Source: Nereocystis luetkeana
Lineage: Eukaryota; Sar; Phaeophyceae; Laminariales; Laminariaceae
Assembly: GCA_031213475.1 (NCBI GenBank)
Contig: JARUPZ010000011.1
Location: forward strand, 7,129,622-7,193,621
DNA length: 64,000 nucleotides
Direction: 5' to 3'
Numbering within the stretch: position 1 is the stretch's first letter; each line of letters starts with the position of its first letter. This document shows positions 37,727-52,096 of the stretch, in pieces. The notes beneath the pieces are model-generated. The model was not told where the DNA came from and did not search any database. It worked only from the letters and a program-made list of their open reading frames with translations. The translations under genes and the position numbers were made by a program.

Positions 37727-37730
37727 CTAT
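37727..37730. repeat. Target-site duplication CTAT (left)
   Basis: CTAT directly abuts the TG end of the left LTR and is repeated at 52093-52096 after the CA end of the right LTR. Four bases fit LTR elements, but a chance match is about 1 in 256. Confidence 0.6.
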
Positions 37731-38224
37731 TGTGAAGATATGGCCGAGGTAAGGGTAAGGGTAAGGGACGCAGGTGTTTTCTGGCAGCTGGGAAGCAGTG
37801 CTTCGCTTCTTCTTATATAGATCTTCTTTATTGATGACTAGAGCTGAGGAGGTGCTCTGGTAGAGAAGTGAGAGGTAGGGGGGTGGGACTCGACGCTCAG
37901 ATATACTCGTCCCACCCCACGCTACAAGCTCTCCTAAATTCCTCTTATCTAACGTACTCCTAAATAACTTTCCTATGGCTACCGAACGTTCTTCTGCTAA
38001 TATAAGAACTTCTCACTTTACGATCCTATCTGCGTTAAGGAACATTACTCTTGTCTAACGACCTATCCGCCTTAGAGAACATTCCTAAAAGACGGTTACT
38101 CTCAACTACCGGAATATCCGCCGGGTTAATCCATTCTTTGGATTATTCTCGTATTCCTCAGGCTACGAAACTGCCGACTATATTATCTATATCTATAGCC
38201 CATGAGCACTCGATTCATATCACA
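37731..38224 (-). repeat. Ty3-type element 3' LTR (left)
   Basis: 494 bp. Positions 37757-38224 are identical to 51625-52092. The first 26 bp differ from the other LTR: here GGTAAGGGTAAGGGTAAGGG, there GGTAGTGGTAAAGGGTAAGGG. The minus strand begins TGTGATATG and ends in TCTTCACA. Small plus-strand ORFs inside it are chance. Confidence 0.88.
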
Positions 38225-39645
38225 TTAGCCCACCCTGAATAGTCGTATATGCAGACCACAAGATGGTCGAAGGATGATGACAAAGTTCATCCCAAAAGAC
38301 CAGGAAAAGGTGGTCGAAGATGCGGCTATTCGAAACAAAAGAAATGAGGCTATAGATCCCCCCACACCTCGTCATAAGACCCAAACACTGCGAAGGGGTG
38401 TTTACTTAACACTGCGAAGGGGTGTTTACTTAGAACAACCACTTAAAGGTAGAGACCGAAGGAGAGGAAGAAATAACTCAAAGCGGAAGCGAAAGCAGAG
38501 AAAGGCAAAGCGAAAACCGAAGAAAGAAGAAAGAAAACAGGAGACAGAACAAAAGCCGAAGCGAAGGCTGAAGAAGAAAACTAGTACCGAAGTGAAGGCG
38601 AAAGAAGGGCGCACAAAAAGATGCGAACGGAGGTTGGTCGCCGAACCGGGTTGGCAAACTAGGAAACTCGCGAAAGGAGGCAGTGCCCGCAATACAAAAA
38701 AACACATATGTATCTGGTAGGAGTAATGCCTTGTCTTGTGTCGGAGGTCCTAACGTGGTAGACATCACTCAAGAGAAACGGGGCACTGCTAAAGTGCAAA
38801 GAGGGTTGCGTACACTAGGGGCTATTAAAACCGGGAGACGGAGCGAACAACGCTGCGTCTGGGAGACCTCTTCGGGGTATGAACTATACCAGCAAACGTA
38901 GCAAGGTATTTAACTCAACAAGAAAAAACTGAAGAAGATCCGCAGGGAGATTTACCTAATGCGTGCAGTTCAAGGTGGTAGATAGCGCAGGGCTAAAACA
39001 CTAGCGTGTGCCACTCGGCCAACAGGGGCGACATCAAAGATGGTGTCGTTTGCCACAGAGCAGAGGGGCGCGCGGAATACCGAACGAAATATGAAGAAAC
39101 CTAAGAAAAAGAAAACAAACCACGATCGGGACCAGGAAACTAACTGAAAGCAGAACACGAGTCAGGGAAAATCGATCTTGGTAGGACCGCCATGGTTGAT
39201 AACTCTGCGGCCTTCCGGGGCGGCAATGCTATCCGGACCCTACTTGGCAAACATAGAAGAAACACGGGCGAGCTGGAAGCTCGATAAAGTCTTAGCTCGA
39301 TGACCGTCTGAAACAGCGGTCGGTGGAAACCGACGGAGGCTAGGATACAGCCCAGGCTACGACACGATTTTACCTCGGCGTAGTATTGCCAATAATTTGC
39401 GGTAGGCTAGTGAAGTACAAACAAATATGAAAATTATGGTATCGCTACGACTCGGTGGCCTGAACGTAAGAAGGCAACACGGAGGTGTAGGCGGTATGAA
39501 GAAAACAAAAGGTAGACGGAAATATATGCACCCAAGAAGCTGGCTGTTGGTGACTATAGAAGACTAACCCTGAAGAACTACTTTAATATATTGTTGACTA
39601 ACCAGAAACAAGTACCCAGAACTAAAAAAAAATGCTAAACCAAGG
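38225..39645. other. 3' tail of the Ty3-type element
   Basis: Non-Pol sequence between the Pol stop and the 3' LTR. The part next to the LTR (38225-38400) matches the 590-bp array in gene B. A Lys/Arg-rich plus-strand ORF runs 38274-38720, antisense to Pol. A 24-bp unit ACACTGCGAAGGGGTG... is repeated exactly twice at 38385-38432. Confidence 0.6.
38274..38720 (+). CDS. Hypothetical Lys/Arg-rich ORF antisense in the element
   Basis: 149 codons. The middle is a run of Lys, Arg, Glu and Gln (KRKRKQRKAKRKPKKEERKQ). No known family. It is on the strand opposite to Pol and includes the 24-bp duplication. Purine-rich DNA can give such a frame by chance, so I doubt it is translated. Confidence 0.2.
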   Translation: MMTKFIPKDQEKVVEDAAIRNKRNEAIDPPTPRHKTQTLRRGVYLTLRRGVYLEQPLKGRDRRRGRNNSKRKRKQRKAKRKPKKEERKQETEQKPKRRLKKKTSTEVKAKEGRTKRCERRLVAEPGWQTRKLAKGGSARNTKKHICIW

Positions 39646-41796
39646 CTATCCAGGGGGGGGAGTGGAAACCGTGGGGGCTCCGCGGGACACATCAGAGTTC
39701 CGCAGCAGCCCACGTGCTAGGCTCCCATTCCCATGGCGTTGAAGACACCACGATCCGTACACGGCGTTCCGTGCTGTAGTGTAGCGGGCGGGTTGAAGGT
39801 CGATCTTGATCGGTCCGGGGTCATCCAGGAACCGGATGATGTAGGAGCCGCCCGGTGAAGGTTCCGGTGGAGCTCCCGAAGAGACGTCCGGGGGTGAGCG
39901 GTGAGCGATTTTGCCCAGCCACCAGAGGCCGTCGCGCGCTTTGTACCATATGTGCGCTCCGGAGGGGAGGATGGTGGTGCTGAAGTTGTGGAGCCAGAGG
40001 CTGCGGGAGACCAGGGCGTAGCCGGGGGCGAGAAATATTTGTCCTTGGGATCGTGCCAGTTCGCGGTGGGCAGCGCCGATGCGCATCTGGCGGTAGAGGC
40101 GGTTCGTCTGGCAGTGTTGTGTCGGCGCTCCTGACCAATAGAGTAGGATGTTGCGCCGGAAGTGTTGAAGGTCCAGCTCGCGTTCCCAAGAGGGGCTGAG
40201 AAGTCCAGCCCAGTGGGTCTCGTACAGAACGGCGATGACCCCGCCGCGGCCGCGTACGAGTTGATGGCCGGTGATCTGCTCGACCTCGAGGCGTTCCGGT
40301 GGGGGAGTGACGTCGTCGACGGTGACGTGGTAAGGTGGGGACTTGGCGGCAGAAGCTGTGAGTACGTATGTAGTGAGGTCCGCGGGCAGATGCTTGGGGA
40401 TATCGCTGGTGTCGTCGGGGTTCCGGCAAGGTTTGCATCGTTGAACGAAGACGCGTGGCTTGGAGTCCCGTCCCGGAAGGTCGGATGGAAGGTCGAAGAA
40501 AAGTAGTTTGTCGTGAAGAGGGCGGTTGTCGGGGGTGTTCGAGGCGGGCGTCGGTCCAACGGCGAGGACCTTGAAGGGCCCATTCCAGTTCAGGGAAAGC
40601 TTCGTCTTGAGTACGGTTGCGTCGGTGCCCTTTTTGACGCCTTGGCGAATGGTTGAGGCGGAGTTGTAGACCCAAACCCAGCCGCCGACGGTGAAGGGGG
40701 GGGATGCTCGGAGGGCGGCCATGATGGGCGCGTTGCGGCGCTGGAGACGCGAGACGGTGAGTCGGTGTAGTTCGCGGATGAGGGAGTACGCGCGTCGTTG
40801 TCGGTCGGTGGCGAGGTTGATGTAGACCAGATGATCGCGGTCCAAGCTTTGGTGGGCGCCGATGTTGTCGGGTTCGAAGACCGAGAGCGGGAGGCGAGGA
40901 AGGCGGCCCATGTGGATTTCGTTAGGCGCAAGCCCTGTAGCGGCGTTCACGGAGTTGTTGTAGGCCGACGACACGTGTGGCAGCAGCACGTCCCAGTCGG
41001 TCTGCTGTTCGTTGCCGACCATAGAGAGCATTTGGGCCAACACATGGTTGACGCGCTCGACGCCGCCGTTGGTGCAGGGGTGGTAGGAGCTGGTGTTGAC
41101 CTTGCGGATACCAAGGCGCTCGTAGACGATGTTTGCAAGCTTGGAGGTAAAGTGTAGTCCGTTGTCGGAGAGAAGCGTAACCGGGCACCCCCAGAGAGGG
41201 ATGTATTCGTTCAGGAAGATGTCGGCGGTGCCGGCGGCCGTGAACTGCGCCGCTGAAACGGCAAACATATCGGCGCGCCGGCTGAAGCGGTCTGTGAAGA
41301 GAAGGATGTGGACGTTGCCGCGCGGCGTGAGCGGCAGGGGTCCGAAGTAGTCGACGCTGACGGTGATGCCAGGCCCGTTGGGCAAAGGAAGAGAAAGGAT
41401 GGGCCAGCGAATGGTGTGCCGGGAGGTTTTCCGCGCCTGGCATTGAAGGCAGCGGCGGATCCACCAGCGGGCGGAAGCGTCCATGCCAATCCACCAAAAG
41501 AAACGTGCCAGCATGCGGACCGTTCGGGTGACTCCTAGGTGTAGAGAGGTGGTGGCGTGGCAGGTGTTCAGCACCCAGGGGCGCATTAACATTGGCACGT
41601 AGATGCGTGGGGTAAGGGGGGCGGGTGGTGGTAGGCTGTTCCCGGGTGGGGGTGGGGGTGGTCGTTGGACCAGGAGGGTGGTTTCGTCGTCCGTACGGTG
41701 CAGCTTGCTTTTGGAGGCAAGGGTGAGGACGTCCGGAAGTTGTGGGCGCCGGGCCGAGGGGATGAAATCCAGGAGGTCGTTCGGCGGGGGGGGCAG
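39646..41796 (-). CDS. Pol part 2: integrase with chromo-like and Tudor-like modules
   Basis: This frame is open from 42099 but is Pol-like only after the C8 run at 41789-41796. It carries an HHCC zinc motif (H..H then CLQC, about 41559-41440) and a DDE core: D in VDYFGP (41352), D in LSDNGLHF (41166), E in GGVERVN (41058). A GPFKVL segment is followed by a chromo-like module (about 40296-40137, VEQITGHQLV to ILLYW). Last comes a Tudor-like stretch (about 39966-39745, WYKARDGLWWLGKI and RFLDDPGPIKI). Integrase inserts the cDNA, and the C-terminal modules probably read histone marks (inference). It ends at a stop 1.4 kb from the LTR. Confidence 0.85.
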   Translation of the reverse strand: MPPPPNDLLDFIPSARRPQLPDVLTLASKSKLHRTDDETTLLVQRPPPPPPGNSLPPPAPLTPRIYVPMLMRPWVLNTCHATTSLHLGVTRTVRMLARFFWWIGMDASARWWIRRCLQCQARKTSRHTIRWPILSLPLPNGPGITVSVDYFGPLPLTPRGNVHILLFTDRFSRRADMFAVSAAQFTAAGTADIFLNEYIPLWGCPVTLLSDNGLHFTSKLANIVYERLGIRKVNTSSYHPCTNGGVERVNHVLAQMLSMVGNEQQTDWDVLLPHVSSAYNNSVNAATGLAPNEIHMGRLPRLPLSVFEPDNIGAHQSLDRDHLVYINLATDRQRRAYSLIRELHRLTVSRLQRRNAPIMAALRASPPFTVGGWVWVYNSASTIRQGVKKGTDATVLKTKLSLNWNGPFKVLAVGPTPASNTPDNRPLHDKLLFFDLPSDLPGRDSKPRVFVQRCKPCRNPDDTSDIPKHLPADLTTYVLTASAAKSPPYHVTVDDVTPPPERLEVEQITGHQLVRGRGGVIAVLYETHWAGLLSPSWERELDLQHFRRNILLYWSGAPTQHCQTNRLYRQMRIGAAHRELARSQGQIFLAPGYALVSRSLWLHNFSTTILPSGAHIWYKARDGLWWLGKIAHRSPPDVSSGAPPEPSPGGSYIIRFLDDPGPIKIDLQPARYTTARNAVYGSWCLQRHGNGSLARGLLRNSDVSRGAPTVSTPPPG
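41789..41796 (-). other. C8 run at the Pol frame change
   Basis: On the minus strand GC8GCC separates the frame of protease-RT-RNase H from that of integrase. One C fewer would make the frames continuous, equivalent to a +1 shift. It may be programmed slippage, a mutation or a homopolymer sequencing error. Confidence 0.7.
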
Positions 41797-44700
41797 GGGA
41801 GTCCAACGACAGGAAGCGGATGGTGGCGCAGCACAGGGGCTCTGCTCGTTGTTCTCGCGCCCAGTCTTTAAAGGTGTAGTGCTCGACGCGGGCGAGGAGG
41901 TAGGGGTCGTCATCTGGTTCGACGATGGGCTCCGGGAGGGGCAGCGACGGTGGTGCTGGTGCCGGCGGAGAAGGCGTTGTTGGGGGGGTTGGGGTTGGGT
42001 TTGCGGGCGCAAACGGGTCGGGCGGCGCGGGAGCTGTGGCTGAAGGCGCCGTAGGAGGAGGGGGTCTTGGCTGGACCCCGGCCGGGGGCGTGGGCGCACT
42101 GGTGGGTGTAGATCGTCTGCGTACGACGGGTTGTGGTCGACGGCCGAAGCGATAGTCGGCTGCGGGTCGAGGGGTTCCCGCGGCAGCGGCGATGCGATGG
42201 CGGGTCCGAGAAGATATCAGGCCTGAAACGGCTGGTTCCGTGCCGCCAGTGGTGGACGGCGGAGAGATGACGGACGGCCTGGAAGCCCAGCCTGGAGGAG
42301 CTCCGCTGTTCACGGCGGCGTTCTCGGGGCCAACAAGCAGTCCGGCGGTGGAGTCAGGGGTCGCAATGGGCCCGACGAAGGTGTCGGGTGCGGGGGAAAG
42401 GGTGGGGTGCTCCATACGTGGTCCCAGTAGGCGGAAGTCGCGGAAATCGTCGGTGGTGAAGGGAAGCGGCTGGATGGTTGGGATGGGCCTTGGAGGGGGG
42501 GATACGAGCCCACCCAAGCCGATACCCGGGGCGGGAGGGTCGTTCGGCGCGAACCCGCAGGGGCGGATGAGGTAGATGCCGACGGTGTCCGGGTCGGTAA
42601 GGCGGTTGCGTCCGGTGCGGTCGGCGTCGGTGGCGGGTTGGGGGAGCCGGGAGAGGAAGTCGGCGTTGCCGTTGGACGTGCCCTTCCGGTATTCCAGCGT
42701 GTAGGTGTACGCCGAAAGGAACTCGAGCCAGCGCCGGACGCGGGCGTTGTGTTCTCCGACCTTGGCGATGTTCTCGAGCGCCTTGTGGTCCGAGTAGATC
42801 TGGAAGCGGGTGGACCATAAATGTCCACGGAGGCGTTTGATCGCCCACACGATGCTCCCGGCCTCGAGGTCGAGGGGTGTCCACGAACGTTCGGAGTCCA
42901 GGGTGGCACGGCTGATGAAAAGGATGGGTCGGACTGAGCCGTCGGGTTGTTCTTGCTCAAGGGTCGCGCCGAAGCCGTCGATGCTAGCGTCGCAGTAGAG
43001 GCGGAAGGGGCGGGAGTTGTCGGCGACGGCGTCCCAGTCGAGGTAGACGAGGATAGGCGGTTCGGCAAGTTCTTGGAGGATGGCGCGGACGGTGGTTTCC
43101 ATGGCGGGGGTGAAGTCGAACGTGGCGCCTTGCTTGAGTAAAGCGTTGATGGGGCGCAGACGTCGGGAGAGATTCGGCAGGAACTTGCCGTAGTAGTTGA
43201 TGCCCCCAAGGAGCGAGCGCACTTGCTTCTTGTCGGCCGGCATGGGCATTCTGGTGAGGGCGGCGACCTTGTCGGAGTTGGGGCTGTAACCGCCGGCGGA
43301 GATGGTGTGTCCCAGGAAATCGGCGGTGGTGGCACCAAGTTTGGCCTTGGCCGGGGAAAGTTTGAGGTGGTGCTTCCGGAGGCGTCCGAAGAGAGCTCTG
43401 ATGTTGGCAACGTGGTCGTTGGGGTTGGGGTCGAAGACGATGATGTCGTCGAGATACGCGGCGACGCGTTCCAGGCCTTTGATGACCTCGTTGATGACCT
43501 TAACGAACCAGCCGGGGGAGGCGCTGCTGCCTTGTGGCATAACAAGCCACTCAAATAACCGGTTCGGTGTGCAGAACGCTGTCAAGGGGATGGTGTCCTC
43601 GTCGATGGTGATTTGGTGGAACGAGGAGACCAGGTCGAAGAGGGAAAAGATGCGACCTTTACCCAAGGAGTCGAGGACTTCGTCGACGCGGGGGATGGGG
43701 AGTTGTCCGAGGGAGCTGATGGCGTTGAGCTTCTTGTAGTTGATTGTGATGCGAACACCTCCGTCTTTCTTGGGGATGGCGACCATAGGGCTGGAGTATG
43801 GCGACGTGGAATGCTGGATCAGGCCGGCAGCCAGGTACTGGTCCAATACGGCGTCGGCCGTTTTGGCGAGGATGGGGTTGATCCTGTAGGGGCGGGAAGT
43901 GACCGGTGCGCTGTCCGGAGGTACCGTGATCTTGAACGGCATTAGCGAGCACGAGCCGAAGTCGGTCTTCGACGTGGAGAAGACGTCCTGGAATTCGCAG
44001 AGGACGTCGCCCAAGTTGTTGATCACCGATGGGGTCCATCCAGAACCGTGAAGGTCGAAGTTGACGTCGCGTAGGTGCAACGGCAGGCGTTCCCAGAGGT
44101 CGAGGAAGCTTTTGCGCTGGTCGGTGTCGAGGCGTGCAAGGAGCTGTGGGCACGGGGCTTTTAGTGCGGTAGAGGGGTCGGCTGTTGATGGACTCTGGTC
44201 GGCCACCGGGATGTTGTTGTGGAGGGCATGTACGTCCGGAAATGGAGGGGGGAGCGGCGGGTCCAAGGAGGGATGCCCAAGGGTGGCGAGCGGTACCTGT
44301 ACCAGTGGGGAGCAGGAGGTTCCGAGGAGGTCACCCGGCTCGAGTTCGGTAGATCCAGATAGGGGGACCGTTTGGTACCCGTCGGAGACGAAAATCGCCG
44401 TGTCGGAAAGGGGGTTCTCGCGGGGGAGCATGTTCACCATGTAATTCCCGGCCAATGCTGGAGCGCCTGACTGGCGCACCAGGTTGACCTTGGCGAGCTG
44501 TGGGGTAGAGGAAAGCGAAATAGCTTTGTTGCCGGCGAATCGGAGGTGGTAGACGTCGTCGGTGGAACGATCGTCGGGAATGAATGCTGAGGCTCCGTTG
44601 GGGTCGTGGTGACTTAAAGAGAGCTCACCACGGGTTTGCCGGGAAGGTTGGTGGGAGAGGGCGGGCTGTTGCCGGAGCGTGGTATACGAGCGGTGCTCGA

Positions 44701-46090
44701 AGCGCATCCAGCTGTCTCGTCCCAGGAGGATGGGGTGCTGCATGGTTCCAGCAGGAACTATGCAGGCCCATACTGCTAGGGCAGCGGTGGGGGTCTGGAG
44801 GCGCATAAACTGGATGCTTAAGCGGATAGAGACGGAGGTGGAGAGTGGGGCCGAGGTGCCGAAGCCTCCCCATGAACGGGGGGAACTGTGCCGTTCGCAG
44901 GCGTCGGTGGCTGACTGGGAGGCCTTCAGTTGTTCCATCGCGGTTGCGGTGATAAACGACTGGGGCGAGCCGGTATCGAGCAGTGCCACGAGTTCGCGGC
45001 GGGTAGTGGCGTCGGGGCCGCTGTGCACGAGTACCTTCGTCGTGAACGACGCGTCGTCGACGGTGGTGATGCCGCCTGTAAGGCATGGTCCGTGTTCCGG
45101 TATCGGCGGCCGACGGGTAGGAAGGTGGCTGTGGGCTGCGGTGTTGATGGTGGACACTTGGGCGAAGTGGCTGATGGGGTAGGCGTCGGGTGTAGACGGC
45201 GGTAGAAGCAGCCCAAGTGGGGAGTTAGGCGGTTGCCGTGGGGGGGTCGGGCTTGTCTCGTGGATGCCGTCGGCGGTGGGGAAGACCCGGGTTGGGTCGG
45301 TGGAGGCGGGTGTTTGCTCTGGGTTGTTGGGACTGGTACCAGTAGGAAGTTGGGGGAGGCGATCGGCGTCGAGGCTTTCTCGGACGTCCATCAGTACCCG
45401 GCCCAGCAGATTCCGACCACGCCAACGCGTCGGAATGCAGGCGTCCGGATGGTCGGCCTTGAGGCCTATGCCCCAGATGAGGTCGTGTGGGCTGGCCTCG
45501 GCAATGTGTTTGTCGTCCGTTGCCGCCAGCTCTCGCCGTAGCTCCGAGTGTTGGCGGAACTTGGAGAAGTTGAGGTTGAGGACGATGTTGTAGCGGTGTC
45601 GCTCCCAAACCAGTTCGTCGAAGCCGAAAACGGTGCGTCCAAGTGCTTTTTGGTCGGCCGGGTCGCGGGTCGCTTTGATGCGGCGCTCAGTTGTGGTGTC
45701 CCCGAAGAGCGCAGCCTTCTGCGCCATCATCATCTGCTCGGCGCAGTTGTATGTGACGCCATCGTGCTCGATGTCGCACAGGTACCACTGCGAAAAGACG
45801 GAAGAGGAGTCCCAGAACAAGTGAAAGGATGAGGGGGCCTCTGCGGTGGTGTGAGCTGTTGATGGCGTGTTGGTTGTTGGGGGTGGGGGGCGACGATAAT
45901 TTTTCCTATCGCCACCTGGCGTCGACGGGGGTAGAGTCAGCCACGATCTAGCGGTGCTGACCGGAACCCTCGTGTTCGCGGGGGAATTGCTCGGCAAAGC
46001 CGAGGTACCGGGGGGGTCCACGCCGGGGCTTATACGCCGGGCGAGACGACCCTGAAAGGTTAGGGTAGACGATAATTTTTCTATCGCCAC
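41790..46090 (-). CDS. Pol part 1: NADAR, aspartic protease, RT, RNase H
   Basis: One long open frame; its first codon here is GTG, so the true start is unknown. Residues 88-242 are a NADAR domain. Residues 340-470 are the retroviral-type protease (LLDTGS at 371-376, ILLGRD at 454-459). Residues 700-1000 are reverse transcriptase (PYSSPMV, FSLFDL, MPQGSSASPGWF, AYLDD at 878-882). Residues 1025-1145 are RNase H (YCDAS, IYSDHKALE, NADFLSR). A Pro-rich linker (about 1195-1395) leads to the C8 run at residue 1433. The frame stays open to 40922 but is nonsense there. The enzymes would mature Gag-Pol and copy the element RNA to DNA in cytoplasmic particles. All visible catalytic motifs are intact. 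Confidence 0.9.
45365..45829 (-). other. NADAR (YbiA-like) domain inside Pol
   Basis: Family landmarks are present in order: FW......FSQWY, DGVTYNCAEQMMMAQKA, FGD, A..DP...K.LGR, W...R..I...N..KF, LRRELAATDDKHIAEASP, WGIGL and WRGRNLLGRVLM.VR. Characterised NADAR proteins cleave N-glycosidic bonds, on riboflavin intermediates (YbiA) or ADP-ribosylated guanine (partners of DarT toxins). The length (about 155 residues) is normal for a whole domain. Fusion upstream of the protease means it would be released, or stay tied, in the particle. Its function here is not known. Confidence 0.92.
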
Positions 46091-46231
46091 CTGGCGTCGA
46101 CGGGGGTAGAGTCAATCACGATCTAGCGGTGCTGATCGGAACCCTCGTGTTCGCGGGGGAATTGCTCGGCGAAGCCGAGGTACCGGGGGGGTCCACGCCG
46201 GGGCTTATACGCCGGGCGAGACGACCCTGAA
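45892..46231 (-). repeat. ~165-bp tandem duplication at the Pol start
   Basis: 45892-46056 and 46068-46231 match almost base for base, with an 11-bp spacer. They encode the same peptide (GRLARRISPGVDPPGTSA) twice. The upstream copy has a TGA where the other has TGG, and the period (175 bp) is not a multiple of three, so the frame from 46850 stops at 46116 and Pol restarts in another frame. Confidence 0.9.
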
Positions 46232-46850
46232 GGGCCCTGTCGTCCAACTTTTGGAGGACAGGGGGATACTCGCTAGGAGATACCACACCTGGGGCCCGTG
46301 TCCACGCGTTGCGCAAAGCAGGCGAGGAGGACGGGGCAGGGGGCTCAGGGCATGTCCTGGTCGACGTTGGTCGCGAGTCTTCCGTTTTTAATACGGGACT
46401 GCCCCTCGAGCTCAGGGGCAGCGGTGGTGTCAACACCGTGGCAGCGGGTGGAAGCCCGTCGTTCGCGGGTCCAACGCTGTCACAAGAAAGGCGCGCATGC
46501 TGGAACAAGCGCGTATGGAGCGGCCAATTAGAGGCAGGCTCAGGGGGCGATGGCCCGGTCGACGAAACGGTAGTTTCGTGTGAACCGGAACCGCTGGTAG
46601 CCGTAATCGTCGAGACGTTTCCCAGGGTAGCAATGTCTGGGGTCTCGGCAATGGTCGGCAAGTAGCGTTGCTCACCGCCGGAAGACGTCGAGTGGAGCAT
46701 CCTGGTGAGGCTCGGCGTCTTGGCCTCCTCCCGCCCACACCTCAAGGCAATCACTTGAGCAAGAGGATCAGTGCTTGAGCAAGTGGCTGGGAAATGGGCT
46801 GGGGTAGGGGGGGGGCATGCGGGGGCAGGGGTCTGGGAGGCGTGGTGCAC
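46116..46850 (-). pseudogene. Upstream Pol/Gag-Pol linker frame, interrupted
   Basis: An open frame rich in Pro, Ser and Thr with no known domain. Its last 45 residues equal the Pol start downstream, after which a TGA ends it. It is probably the original N-terminal extension of Pol, cut off by the tandem duplication. Confidence 0.6.
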
Positions 46851-46937
46851 GTGATTTACGCGTGCGTCCTGAGAGCCTCGGGTGGTCGCAGTAGATGCTG
46901 TTGATGGAGATGCGGCAGGTGCTCCATCATCGGCTTA

Positions 46938-48602
46938 TCAGTTGGTGCGGAAGGTTCCCGGCTGCCGTTGGTTCGGGAGGTTGGTCGAGTTGTTGCTGCC
47001 CATCCGCATGTTTGCGGGGGCGGCTGGTGCGGACGTGTTGGTCGCAGGGGTATGAACCGTCAACGCGGAAGACGAGGGGGCAGGCTCGATGCGTTGTTGT
47101 CGGAACTGTTGCCCTGGCGAGTGTCGGTTGCCGTTGTCGTAGTTCCGGCCGTTGCTATGGCGCCAGTTGTTGGAGCGTTCGTCGTCGCCGCGGTAGTTGC
47201 GGGAGTGGTTATAGTTGGAGTGGCTGTTGTTGGAGTTTCCGCTACGGTTGGTGTTGTTGCCTCGACGGTTGTTGTCGTAGCGGTTGGAACTCCGCTCCAG
47301 GTTGCGCTCGTATTGCCCCCGGCAGTAAGAGAGCATCCTCTGTTGCCACTGGCGGTAGGCCTGACCATCGTCGTTTAGCTGTCCGAGTGCCGGGTTTAAG
47401 ATGCCGGACGTGGTGAGGAAGCTCTTGGAGCAGGTCTTCTGGCTATGGTCCGTGCCATTGCAGTTGAGTCAAAGGTCACCGTGAGCGCGTAGGGCTTGGG
47501 CGTGGGACACCGCGACGTTCCGCCTCCGTCATGGGCTCCGTAGAGGCTCTCGTCACCAGGCTGAGCGCTCGTGTGGAGGGGGGCGCTGCCGTCGTGGGAG
47601 GTGTTGTCGAGGTGAGAAGGGGCGGTGTCGCCGGCGATGGCGTATCCGTTGTGGGGCGGGTGGTTGGGGGTGTCGGAGGGGTGGGTCGAGACTCGGTCGG
47701 GTTCCACACGTAGCCGCGGCCGGCGTTGGAGTGGAAATACCTTAGCTCGAGTAAAAGGGTGTGGGCGGCCCCGATGAACTCGGACGAGGCACCCTCGGTG
47801 GCGGCGCGGGCCAGAACGAAGGTGATCGACGGGTCGCAGTCGGGTGTGAACAGTCGCCAGACGCGGTGTGCCGCTATAGAGACATCTGAGGCTATCGGGT
47901 CGCGTGTACTCTGCATCCAGCGGAGCTTGGTGTCCAGAAAGACCCAGTCATTTGACTCAAAGCCGAACGTCTGCGGTTGCCGGTGCCCAGTGGGTTTGGG
48001 GGCTGGCAAGGATTGGGCCGGTAGTGGTGCCTGGGACATTGTGGTCCCAGCTTGGTTCTGGGGGCGCTGGGAGGTGGTGGTCCTAGACATCGCGGCGGAC
48101 GCAAAGGGTGGTCCAGGGTGCGGAGCCGACGGCTGCGGTTGGGCCGTGGTAGCCGTGGTCGCAGCTGCAGTCTCGTAGGTGTGGTCGAAGGGGTAGGAGA
48201 GGGCGGTAACACGAGTAGGAGGTCAGCGCTCTCTTTCGCAAGAAGGAGGAGCTGCTCGTGGTGGGCTTTGAGGGCCGCGCGGCGCTCACGGAGAGCCGTG
48301 GGATCGCTTTGGTAGTGCCCCGGATTGAGAGCAGGGGTGGAAGTTTCCTGTGCGGAGACTTCCGGTTTGATGGTAGGCCCTGCACTGGTCGTGCCTGCTC
48401 CCAGTGGAGAAGATCCCGGTGTGGTGGGGTGTAGAGCGAGGTCACTCAGAATGGTATCGAAGCCGGGGGTGCCGTCGTCCGTGGCGCGAGAGGACCTTGC
48501 GGCATACCTCGCCTCGCGGGGGTTGGTGGTGTCGGTGGAAGGGGCGCCGGGCATGTCGGTGGAGGAAGTTGGAGAGGGCTGGTGGATCCAGGCTTGGATC
48601 AT
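46938..48602 (-). pseudogene. Gag, broken across frames
   Basis: It starts MIQAWIHQPSPTSSTDM at 48602. Protein-like sequence then continues in different frames: to about 48190; then about 48190-47480 with a helical capsid-like segment (NDWVFLDTKLRWMQ, FLIGAAH-like, YFHSNAGRGYVW); then about 47400-46938 (LNPALGQLNDDGQAYRQWQQRMLSYCRGQYERN) ending in an Asn/Arg-rich tail. No zinc knuckle is seen; the basic Asn/Arg tail may bind RNA instead. Gag would form the particle shell. At least two frame changes are needed, so this copy is broken or the sequence has errors. Confidence 0.6.
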
Positions 48603-51599
48603 CGTAGGCGGCTACAATACCAACAAACCGATCTAGGGGACAGAAAGGAGTGACGGTAAGGACGTACAATAAGGGGTATTGAGGGGGGTGTGCCACAATT
48701 ATAGTGCCCGTCGAAGGATATTTTTATAGTTGAGGACGTCTAGCTAGTTTCAGGCGCCTCGCGTGTGATTGACGGTAGTCGCGCCCGAGTCACTCAAGTG
48801 ATATCAGTTGAACCGAATTGAACAGAACTCCGTCTGAAATGTCCAATGTTCGTAGTGATAACAGGGCGTGACGATTACTGGGCGTGGGCAGTGCAAGACC
48901 TTTCGTTGGGATACAATTAGAGTACCCGTAAAGGCAACGTGTAGGTCGAGTCGGGGGGAAAATTGCAGCATGCCGGCACTATTTGGTAGCTGCACAGAAT
49001 ATCGGGCGATTCCCTACTTGAACGGTGGGCAGTTTTTCGTTCCGTGGTAGAAACAGACAGCAACCGATACATTTCGGGGGTCGCGAGGCCCGATACGTTG
49101 TGAGATACTTAGGGTGTCGTAGAGGTGGCACAAGTGGGAACAAAATAAAAATAAAAATAAGAAATAGACCCCGGTACGTAAAAACATGGAAAAGAGTATC
49201 AATCGGCTCCTTTGGGGGAGTCGAAGACGCTAATCCGCCGCGAAGGATGTTGTGTATTATTGTGTTAGTTTGGCCAGCATTTAGTTCATCACTCTCGGAA
49301 ATGGTCACTGTCCGGGCCACAGTTACTATGCTCCATATTCGAGCAGCTTGCAGCTGCTGTTTTTGTGATGAGCTCGACAAACATGGGAGAAACAGATGTT
49401 TACTAGTTTGTGTAGCCTTTGTGGTGTTACGGTTCTAGGCAGCCTGTATCCTGCTTTATTTGTAAAAGCTGGTGGGGGGTGGGGCGCGTTGGAAAATAAC
49501 ACTAGTTACAAACTTGAACAGTGTCTACCCTGCTTTGATTAAAGGTGGGAGCAAAAAAGAAAAGAAGAGAGAAAAAAAAATGGAAGGCACACGTCGAAAA
49601 CAAAAAAGAAAGGGAAAACAAACACGACCAAACTAATATTCGGGCCAGATCAGGTAGCATACATTCTGTTTTGATGTGCTACAGCTGGGGGGGGGTAGAC
49701 GTATGCAGCAGCAGACAAAGTTGCGCGCCACAAAGCCTCGTTCCGTCGGTAACGCTGAGGAACGTGCACGTAAGAGGCTGTAGCCGGACATATTTGTGCA
49801 GCATATATATACCTTATTTCGGCTTAAAACTGGCATATTTAAATGCGCCTAGGCAGCAGACGGACAAGGTTCGGCAACATAAAGCCGCTTTAAGTCGATA
49901 ATGCTGGAAAACGTGCACGTAAAGAGCAGTAGAAAAAAAAATCTAAAAAATATAGACATCGTTTGTATCCTATAGGCCGTGGGGGTGGGGCATAAATGGC
50001 AGAAATCCGATTAATTTCCGCAGCATGCGTCCTGTATTTATAGTAGAGCAGCAGGAAAGTAGTGCATCATAGAGCCTGTTCTGCATGGTAGAAGCAGCGT
50101 GTGGACGGGCAATCTGAAGAGGGGTGCAGAAATATAAGCTGGTCCCAATGAGCAACATTTAAAATCCTCCTGCAGATATATTCCTAAAGAGCTACGTGCA
50201 ACCATATAAGAATTGTCTACAGGTATACCTGGTATTCCCAGAGCGCTACCCGTACGTGTGTGTTCTTCGCATTGTATATACGTGCAACCAGGTAAGGTTC
50301 GCCTACGTACGAGTATAAATATATGCATTCCTATACGGTGGATGTGCTACACCATCACATCAAGAAAGGGGCACCGACCGTGCATCGTTTGTCTACCTAA
50401 ATATATCGCGAGAAAGGAAGGGGGGGTTCACAGGAGATTTCGTCACTAAAATAGTGTTACGTACCCTTATTGGTACCTCGCTCGTATACCAGACTTTGTA
50501 GGCTACTATGTGTGTGTTGAAATCCTGTAACCAAGGCATTCAAATAAAATACCAGGTACATTCATGGCTATTCTCGCTGTGGGGGGGTCGCCAGTAAGGT
50601 TAATTCATACGTATACTATCGCTCGTATCAGGTACCAGGTACCAGGTATGGTCGTTCAATAACTCGCAGGCGAATATCCCACGCAATAGATACCAATGGA
50701 TACAATTCGCAATTATAGCCGAGCCGTTCGTAGGCAGCTCACATATGCATATAATAGGAATGGCGTATTTAGTCACACAACCGCTGTTCCTAAAAAAGTT
50801 TTTTTTTTTTTTACCACGTATCAGTATACTGCTGCGGGTGTCCTACCAGTACTACAGCAGCTTCTTTGTAGTCGTGGTAAGGGTCAAATCCCGTACAACG
50901 CTTGTCTATACAGGAAGGTGCAGATAAAATGGCGGGGGGGTTAATGTGAGCAGTTCCACCTACTTTTTACGTACCTTCCCTGTGAAAGGGCGGGCATACA
51001 TCGAGGCGGAGGGGGTCATTGTTATAAAAAACGCTTTCGTTGTTGTGCGCGATGAGCACGATGTCATTTGGGGGGGGTCTCCAGGTGCATTCAACCACAT
51101 GGTGTCACGTATCGTGGAGGTGATCGATCTCGTCATTCCACGGCGGAGGCGGGGTACAGGGCGCGGAAAAACAAACCTCATCACACTGCCGAGAGCAACA
51201 ATAGTACTTATTTGACAAGTACCTACTAAGAAACAGCAGAGAGAAGTTATACGTACTTGTACGTGTGCCTGATAAGGGGGGAAGAATGCGTCTACTCACC
51301 TATACTAAGAGGGGAGAAACGTCTACTGTCGCCACTAGGCAGCTTGTCACAGTCGTCGGCACTAAAAACACACTCAGGAACGCAGGTTCGAAAAGAAAAA
51401 AAAGAAAGAAAGAAAATAGACCGCGAGGAAAACGAAAGAAAAAACGAAACAAGGAACGAAAAGAAACAAAAATAAAAAGTTGACTTCAAAACCAGTTGCC
51501 TCCCGGGTAGGGATGGCTCACATGATCGTGAGAAGATCTAGAAGAAGCGCTGCAGTCCTCAGCTTGGCCAGAAGGCTCGTCGAATGCGAAGACGTCAGA
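48603..51599. other. 3.0 kb leader of the Ty3-type element
   Basis: No coding sequence recognised. It holds a diverged duplication of about 160-170 bp (GCAGCAGAC..AA(A/G)GTT to AACGTGCACGTAA, near 49703 and 49851), AAAGAAA-rich stretches (49550-49630, 51390-51475) and several TACCAGGTA motifs near 50226-50648. The length is unusual for a Ty3 leader and it may include nested insertions. Confidence 0.5.
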
Positions 51600-52092
51600 T
51601 GTGAAGATATCAGAGGTAGTGGTAAAGGGTAAGGGACGCAGGTGTTTTCTGGCAGCTGGGAAGCAGTGCTTCGCTTCTTCTTATATAGATCTTCTTTATT
51701 GATGACTAGAGCTGAGGAGGTGCTCTGGTAGAGAAGTGAGAGGTAGGGGGGTGGGACTCGACGCTCAGATATACTCGTCCCACCCCACGCTACAAGCTCT
51801 CCTAAATTCCTCTTATCTAACGTACTCCTAAATAACTTTCCTATGGCTACCGAACGTTCTTCTGCTAATATAAGAACTTCTCACTTTACGATCCTATCTG
51901 CGTTAAGGAACATTACTCTTGTCTAACGACCTATCCGCCTTAGAGAACATTCCTAAAAGACGGTTACTCTCAACTACCGGAATATCCGCCGGGTTAATCC
52001 ATTCTTTGGATTATTCTCGTATTCCTCAGGCTACGAAACTGCCGACTATATTATCTATATCTATAGCCCATGAGCACTCGATTCATATCACA
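51600..52092 (-). repeat. Ty3-type element 5' LTR (right)
   Basis: 493 bp, identical to the left LTR except near its inner edge. It should drive transcription toward lower coordinates. A TATATAAG box lies at 51680-51687 on the minus strand. Confidence 0.88.
51680..51687 (-). promoter_or_regulatory. TATA box of the 5' LTR
   Basis: The minus strand reads TATATAAG, about 405 nt into the LTR. A start site about 25-30 nt downstream would leave roughly 55 nt of R-U5 before the LTR end at 51600, a reasonable layout. The same box is in the other LTR at 37812-37819. Confidence 0.5.
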
Positions 52093-52096
52093 CTAT
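52093..52096. repeat. Target-site duplication CTAT (right)
   Basis: Partner of 37727-37730. Confidence 0.6.

Follow-up and report, generated by a model that had tools for sequence, protein, structure and literature searches.

The window, that is, the whole stretch of 64,000 nucleotides of Nereocystis luetkeana DNA analysed here (taken from an assembly of 465 Mb in 1987 contigs), holds on its minus strand an LTR retrotransposon whose parts are collected in Table 1. The element is enclosed by two LTRs and a target-site duplication, and its domains follow the protease, reverse transcriptase (RT), RNase H and integrase order of Ty3/Gypsy elements, the protease being recognized by motif only and the integrase lying in a second frame. 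We are virtually certain of its identity as a Ty3/Gypsy LTR retrotransposon copy, from a lineage in which Pol starts with a YbiA-type NADAR domain. Read on the plus strand, the LTRs have TGTGAAG at one end and ATATCACA at the other. The preliminary description of this DNA had called the insertion recent, a label that is fair because the LTRs are 98.8% identical and CTAT is present on both flanks.

Table 1. Parts of the LTR retrotransposon, in window coordinates
Feature	Position	Strand	Basis
LTR retrotransposon, 14.36 kb	37731-52092	minus	LTRs and target-site duplication
Target-site duplication CTAT, left	37727..37730		read from sequence
3' LTR, 494 bp	37731..38224	minus	self-BLAST against 5' LTR
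Second frame, integrase zinc-binding and core domains	39649..42216	minus	hmmscan
Pol open frame: NADAR, protease-like region, RT, RNase H	40922..46090	minus	ORFs, hmmscan
RNase H (RT_RNaseH), residues 1024-1128	42707..43021	minus	hmmscan, E=3.1e-28
Reverse transcriptase (RVT_1), residues 772-930	43301..43777	minus	hmmscan, E=1.4e-27
Protease-like region, motifs LLDTGS and LLGRDSW	44681..45076	minus	motifs read from sequence
NADAR (PF08719), residues 92-240 of the Pol frame	45371..45817	minus	hmmscan, E=4e-47
Two tandem units of about 165 bp, 97% identical, just upstream of NADAR	45892..46231	minus	self-BLAST, repeat search
Gag-like region, several frames	46938..48611	minus	ORFs
5' LTR, 493 bp	51600..52092	minus	self-BLAST, 98.8% identity to 3' LTR
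Target-site duplication CTAT, right	52093..52096		read from sequence

Counted from its first GTG, the Pol frame encodes 1722 amino acids, and it stays open back to 46111. The arrangement first described, with NADAR standing in one frame ahead of protease and RT, holds for NADAR and RT; the protease between them is seen by motifs alone (LLDTGS near 44977 and LLGRDSW near 44728, which we take to be motifs of a retropepsin-like protease), since hmmscan of the open frame gave no Pfam match for this region. The YLDD motif of the RT lies at 43456. In the second frame, Integrase_H2C2 is matched at E=5.2e-15 and the core domain rve at E=7.7e-6, the latter under its cut-off, and a chromodomain-like tail can be discerned by eye after the integrase, near 40296-40152, where Pfam gave nothing at E<=0.1. 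One gag-like frame starts with LNCNGTDHSQKTC, presumably part of a zinc-knuckle pattern; no significant Pfam match was obtained with two ORFs in 46938..48611 other than ORF 46938-47468, or with the ORF 46116-46850.

Judged from its frames, the window copy is probably defective rather than intact, because its integrase is off the NADAR-RT frame, whereas its database relatives P0005, P0009 and P0011 carry NADAR, RT and integrase in a single chain. Other copies in the same genome have open frames around NADAR reaching 2428 amino acids, many of them between 2000 and 2428. The tandem units just upstream of NADAR were considered as damage of the window copy, an explanation that was rejected, since they recur in most of the loci examined of family A, to which the window element belongs: in 10 of the 12 family-A loci among L001-L020, the stretch is matched at two or more places, so the units are a family trait. 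Directly inside the 5' LTR, the minus strand at 51561-51599 reads TCTGACGTCTTCG... and lacks the initial TGG with which a typical tRNA primer-binding site would start. The roughly 3 kb from 48611 to 51600, which separate the gag-like region from the 5' LTR, contain no open frame longer than about 150 amino acids and seem to form a long leader.

The NADAR domain and its active site

The presence of the NADAR domain, until then read from the letters only, is established by hmmscan, which gives PF08719 a score of 160.9 bits (E=4e-47) against a cut-off of 35.1 and covers profile positions 2-162 of 163, so that the lack of any HMM hit, named at the outset as refuting, is excluded. The domain is encoded on the minus strand; 45365-45829 translated from the plus strand contains a stop. 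An origin of the match by chance or artefact was rejected in view of the HMM score and of the large number of copies described below. When the domain was compared with solved structures by phmmer, only 8bau (E=4.7e-18) and 2b3w, E. coli YbiA (E=1.2e-7), were matched at E<=0.001, and by its residue numbering, with an offset of two, 8bau fits the Phytophthora NADAR enzyme described in PMC11543638. The Phytophthora nicotianae and E. coli proteins have the family, the ADP-ribose-site residues and the YbiA-type glutamate in common with the window domain, but they are free-standing enzymes and not, like the window domain, embedded in a Pol polyprotein.

A list of 11 ADP-ribose-site positions given for the Phytophthora enzyme (PMC11543638) was transferred through the alignment to 8bau. 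Window residues E118, K125, K148, R152, F157 and E159 align with Phytophthora E43, K50, K75, R79, Y84 and D86, and W162, R166, E198, D203 and W206 with W89, R93, E125, D130 and W133. Across 18 representatives (four lineages of the window genome and 14 database proteins), eight of the 11 site positions are invariant, as compared with 29 of all 149 columns (hypergeometric P=9e-5). Seven positions, E43, K50, R79, W89, E125, D130 and W133 in Phytophthora numbering, are identical in 18/18 representatives; the Y84 position is phenylalanine in all 18, invariant yet unlike the Phytophthora tyrosine; K75 is kept in 17/18 and R93 in 15/18, and the D86 position varies. In 50 copies of the genome (49 and the window), E43 is kept in 49, K50 in 50, E125 in 47 and D130 in 50. 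By alignment, then, the window domain keeps the active-site residues of NADAR enzymes.

The NADAR subfamilies are distinguished by the residue at the Phytophthora E125 position, which is glutamate in the YbiA subfamily and aspartate or histidine in the others, as described in PMC11543638. Glutamate stands there in 18/18 representatives and 47/50 copies, and the window domain is thereby of the YbiA type. The antitoxins of DarTG1 systems belong to the same superfamily, and their lysine (K115 in E. coli C7, K75 in Phytophthora) is the one found in 17/18 representatives; they have, however, a catalytic aspartate and an adjacent DarT1, whereas the window NADAR has a glutamate and no DarT match in its genome. 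A six-frame, intron-blind search of the host genome returned 0 candidates for DarT, with a positive control in Deinobacterium. For PARP, one exon match was found in the host, and the same search gave no positive among 14 control genomes.

The domain may act as a small-molecule N-glycosidase that, like YbiA, attacks intermediates of riboflavin biosynthesis or some comparable metabolite, as a house-cleaning activity carried with Pol. This metabolic reading is kept alive by the NCBIfam model TIGR02464, riboflavin biosynthesis intermediates N-glycosidase, which matches the window NADAR above its cut-off (E=9.8e-45), and it is compatible with the kept YbiA-type glutamate and with the proposal that NADARs unlinked to DarT1 may have other targets (PMC11543638). 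It is hard to see, however, why a retroelement should keep such an activity, and the NADAR and YbiA proteins assayed in the work reported in PMC11125620 also hydrolysed ADP-ribosyl-guanosine, so we regard it as quite unlikely. Alternatively, NADAR could serve as a binding domain for ADP-ribose or nucleic acid, for example targeting particles or integration to ADP-ribosylated chromatin, with catalysis not under selection. The position of the domain in Pol, ahead of the protease and together with the chromodomain-like tail seen by eye, would agree with the chromatin-reader theme reported for these Gypsy lineages (PMC12477816), but the positions of the catalytic glutamate and lysine are conserved as strongly as the ligand contacts, and we consider pure binding fairly unlikely.

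Copies of the family and selective constraint

The genome has at least 150 matches to PF08719 (150 were scored out of 778 candidates, all of them over the cut-off), which excludes that no other copy of the family carries the domain, a further refuting outcome envisaged in the preliminary description. From 109 copies listed among these 150 NADAR-scored matches, 49 were fetched, and in all 49 a protease-like region and/or RT/RNase H follows NADAR in the same order. At least four lineages are found among them, namely family A, family B and the singletons L063 and L067. One family-A copy, L026, has its protease-like segment in the opposite orientation to NADAR and RT, with RT and RNase H in order. 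The RT match is missing in five fetched copies (L041, L047, L058, L062 and L065). The last four of these belong to family B; the distance from NADAR to RNase H is similar in all of them and the intervening sequence gives no RT match, which would fit the spread of a non-autonomous deletion derivative. Three of the four have stops in NADAR.

Because this sample had been chosen by NADAR score, the protease-like region alone was added as a NADAR-independent probe of the genome. It gave 150 matches, of which the first 99, all at least 93% identical, were checked, the other 51 being shorter or more distant. In 90 of the 99, a NADAR is found on the same strand, 300-1500 bp upstream (4 of these 90 with an internal stop), and the remaining nine loci comprise two with a complete in-frame NADAR, five with a full-length frameshifted one, one with a partial domain and one with none. 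A full or nearly full NADAR is thus present in 97/99 loci, and in 88/99 no stop or frameshift was seen. NADAR is near-universal in the element family, and the conserved site residues and the dN/dS of 0.37 within the window's family show that the element maintains it.

For the 26 copies of family A, the window among them, the maximum-likelihood estimates of omega are 0.37 (NADAR) and 0.38 (RT), and fixing omega at 1 costs 2dlnL of 12.1 and 12.0, respectively. In family B (eight copies), the estimates are 0.58 for NADAR and 0.36 for RT (2dlnL 8.3 and 24.2), and across nine sequences from all four lineages they are 0.22 and 0.07 (2dlnL 149 and 417). All these copies come from the list ranked by NADAR score, and those bearing stops were left out, so the NADAR values are biased downward; the NADAR slice contains a stop in 7 of 50 copies (49 and the window). 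Between the window and L063, dN is 0.43 in NADAR versus 0.08 in RT, and dS 2.1 versus 1.3. These codon-model estimates indicate that, between lineages, NADAR has changed more rapidly than RT, yet far from neutrally, and that selection maintains it across the lineage. The neutral decay of the domain that would have spoken against a function is therefore disfavoured by dN/dS for the family, although single copies have decayed.

The contrast between L063 and the window (51% identity in NADAR, 88% in RT) does not appear to need a domain swap. Identity rises unevenly along the protein, from 44-56% in NADAR through 53-73% over most of the stretch between to 77-96% from RT onward, and synonymous sites are close to saturation in NADAR as well as in RT, so fast protein evolution would suffice, though recombination may also have played a part.

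A small group of copies sets a limit to this constraint. Four dispersed family-A copies on three contigs (L104, L105, L106 and L111), which are four of the five frameshifted ones among the protease-probe loci, have in common one small deletion that shifts the frame within NADAR. Three of them are 98.7% alike over 1.2 kb, the fourth is 92.8-94.0% identical to these, and two keep an open frame of 2022 amino acids around the protease-like region. Because four dispersed copies share one deletion, NADAR-broken copies have multiplied, whether served in trans, without need of the domain, or by segmental duplication, and a strict requirement for NADAR in cis is disfavoured. The fusion is thus real, widespread and constrained, with the ADP-ribose-binding and catalytic residues kept, but a sub-group with a broken NADAR has multiplied. 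The spread of these copies is what could be expected if NADAR were a passenger, captured once and tolerated without function. Against this stand the omega of family A, which is well below 1 and equal to that of RT, and the conservation of the active site across lineages that differ at about half of their NADAR residues, making a mere passenger very improbable.

Possible functions of a Pol-borne NADAR domain

Hydrolysis of ADP-ribosyl-guanine has been described for several kinds of NADAR (PMC11543638; PMC11125620). The latter report describes in-vitro hydrolysis of ADP-ribosyl-guanosine for a myxobacterial YbiA and for E. coli-related NADARs of four types, all four of these types being inactive on ADP-ribosyl-thymidine; rescue from DarT1 is not obtained with YbiA (PMC11125620). 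The reading that we place first, tentatively and at somewhat less than even odds, is that the Pol-borne NADAR is an ADP-ribosyl hydrolase, probably guanine-directed, which acts on the nucleic acids of the element. NADAR would be made as part of Pol and would then either stay in it or be released by the element protease. In the cytoplasmic particle, it could act as an ADP-ribosyl hydrolase that removes ADP-ribose, most plausibly from guanines, from element RNA or cDNA before integration; adducts of this kind on the template would be expected to block reverse transcription. Such a function would be helpful but not absolutely required in cis.

This hydrolase reading is consistent with the single frame shared by NADAR, RT and RNase H, with the recurrence of the fusion in many copies of the genome, with the conserved ADP-ribose-site residues, with omega below 1 in family A and across the four lineages and with the in-vitro hydrolysis of ADP-ribosyl-guanosine by related NADARs (PMC11125620). 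It has to be weighed against the faster evolution of NADAR than of RT between lineages, including the family-B omega of 0.58, against the spread of the copies with the shared NADAR deletion and against the absence of a DarT match in the host, and no biochemical test of a retroelement NADAR was found among the papers surveyed.

A related possibility is that the domain serves in counter-defence, either removing ADP-ribose that host ADP-ribosyltransferases have placed on particle proteins or nucleic acids or destroying a soluble ADP-ribose signal. Some positive-strand RNA viruses have NADAR beside the polymerase in their polyproteins, for which a role against host ADP-ribosylation has been proposed (PMC9503650); the Macro and NADAR domains of these polyproteins are likewise ADP-ribose-processing domains beside a polymerase, but these are RNA viruses, whereas the window element is an LTR retrotransposon. 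The one PARP exon match in the host and a parallel capture of an ADP-ribose-processing fold, a macrodomain instead of NADAR, by the Gypsy-type Pol P0102 (see below) point in the same direction. On the other hand, the host has no DarT match, and the NADARs assayed act on guanosine and not on thymidine adducts, according to PMC11125620; for these assays, no protein substrates are described. All in all, counter-defence seems rather unlikely; we know of no antiviral ADP-ribosylation system in brown algae. Both roles suggested in the preliminary description, removal of ADP-ribose from the element's own nucleic acids and counter-defence, would be compatible with the data.

An ADP-ribose eraser kept under selection in a retrotransposon Pol would point to nucleic-acid ADP-ribosylation in the host group, where, to our knowledge, none has been recognized. 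It is conceivable, if unlikely, that brown algae or their close relatives use a guanine-specific nucleic-acid ADP-ribosylation other than that by DarT against retroelements or in stress, and that this Gypsy lineage has long had an eraser of its own in Pol. The fusion published for Ectocarpus (PMC12477816) is, as presented there, a domain observation with a suggested role; active-site conservation, dN/dS and the NADAR-broken copies make the function testable and at the same time limit it.

Relatives and origin of the domain

The preliminary description had left it undecided whether such fusions were already known. They are: a Gypsy lineage of Ectocarpus with a YbiA-type NADAR at the Pol N-terminus was reported in Genome Biology in 2025 (PMC12477816), so the NADAR-Gypsy fusion is not new in kind. 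New here are the active-site conservation, the dN/dS, the near-universality of the domain, the amplification of NADAR-broken copies and the free-standing brown-algal relatives. In the Ectocarpus element, Gypsy-12_Ec32, the Gypsy Pol likewise carries a YbiA-type NADAR N-terminally, and bacterial NADARs are further relatives in both cases (PMC12477816); it would be a candidate close relative of the window element. A chromodomain is reported for its lineage, whereas the window element has only a chromodomain-like tail seen by eye, and the Ectocarpus genome measures 200.2 Mb (PMC12477816) versus 465 Mb for the window genome. The Tx1 LINEs of Crassostrea gigas have likewise captured NADAR, but they are non-LTR elements with the domain in ORF1 and are divergent by that paper's account (PMC12477816). 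Beyond this paper, no further report of a NADAR-retroelement fusion was found by title or abstract, the subscription literature being mostly outside the scope of the search.

A database search with the region from NADAR through RNase H, in which the 7998 best word-sharing candidates were scored, yielded at least 121 proteins, 120 of them listed. In the 41 best (P0002-P0042), which include Ectocarpus proteins, RT is 49.7-94% identical to that of the window or of P0005 (the query P0005 aside); in P0043-P0060 it is 30-40% identical to either. NADAR is present, whole or in part, in 19 of these 41 proteins, and 17 of the 19 that reach at least 560 residues ahead of RT have it; the two exceptions, P0020 and P0021, look like composite gene models. 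Eight of the 41 are named to organism, all to Ectocarpus sp. CCAP 1310/34, and where they match the window their identity to it is 53-73%.

Searching with NADAR only gave 360 matches, and the named ones among the 120 listed are from bacteria and molluscs. A search with the alignment of six NADAR regions gave 110 proteins, including short free-standing NADARs, namely P0248 (Ectocarpus sp. 13), P0249 (E. fasciculatus) and P0250 (EukProt). These three form one group (99), placed among the element NADARs with weak support, and they could possibly be either host genes domesticated from the elements or donors to them. Among 150 scored matches in the window genome, the best counterpart of P0248 is an element copy at 56% identity, and no close counterpart was found among them. 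Esi0017_0056, an Ectocarpus protein of 391 amino acids encoded by a stress-induced gene, with NADAR at residues 132-291 (PMC7922944), may belong with these free-standing NADARs.

The NADARs of retroelements do not form one clade in free trees, those of family A standing apart from most other element NADARs. A single retro-NADAR clade is nevertheless not rejected (p-AU 0.44 with 17 rows and 0.16 with 18 rows), and a FastTree tree of the NADARs did not separate single from several captures. The simplest reading of these trees would be one capture of NADAR in the ancestor of the RT clade; a later replacement of the domain in one branch is a possible alternative to it. Viruses were considered as donors and are not favoured: all 33 viral contigs matched carry NADAR, but at no more than 52% identity to the queries, and are thus no closer than bacterial-type NADARs, which reach up to 55-57% among the listed matches of the NADAR-only search. 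No RT or RNase H match was found in the fetched stretches of these 33 contigs.

Other joinings of ADP-ribose-related domains came to light in the same searches. In the metagenomic protein P0102, the protease, RT, RNase H and integrase of a Gypsy-type Pol are accompanied by a C-terminal macrodomain (PF01661, E=2.4e-29); as far as its domain matches tell, this is a second ADP-ribose-processing fold taken up by an LTR element, and no literature report of a macrodomain in an LTR-element Pol was found by title. In four further metagenomic proteins (P0316, P0317, P0321 and P0323), NADAR is joined to Macro, PF10021 or PF03747 according to precomputed Pfam labels, and the NADAR-Macro fusion of P0316 was confirmed by a domain scan; in such fusions, both modules may concern ADP-ribose.
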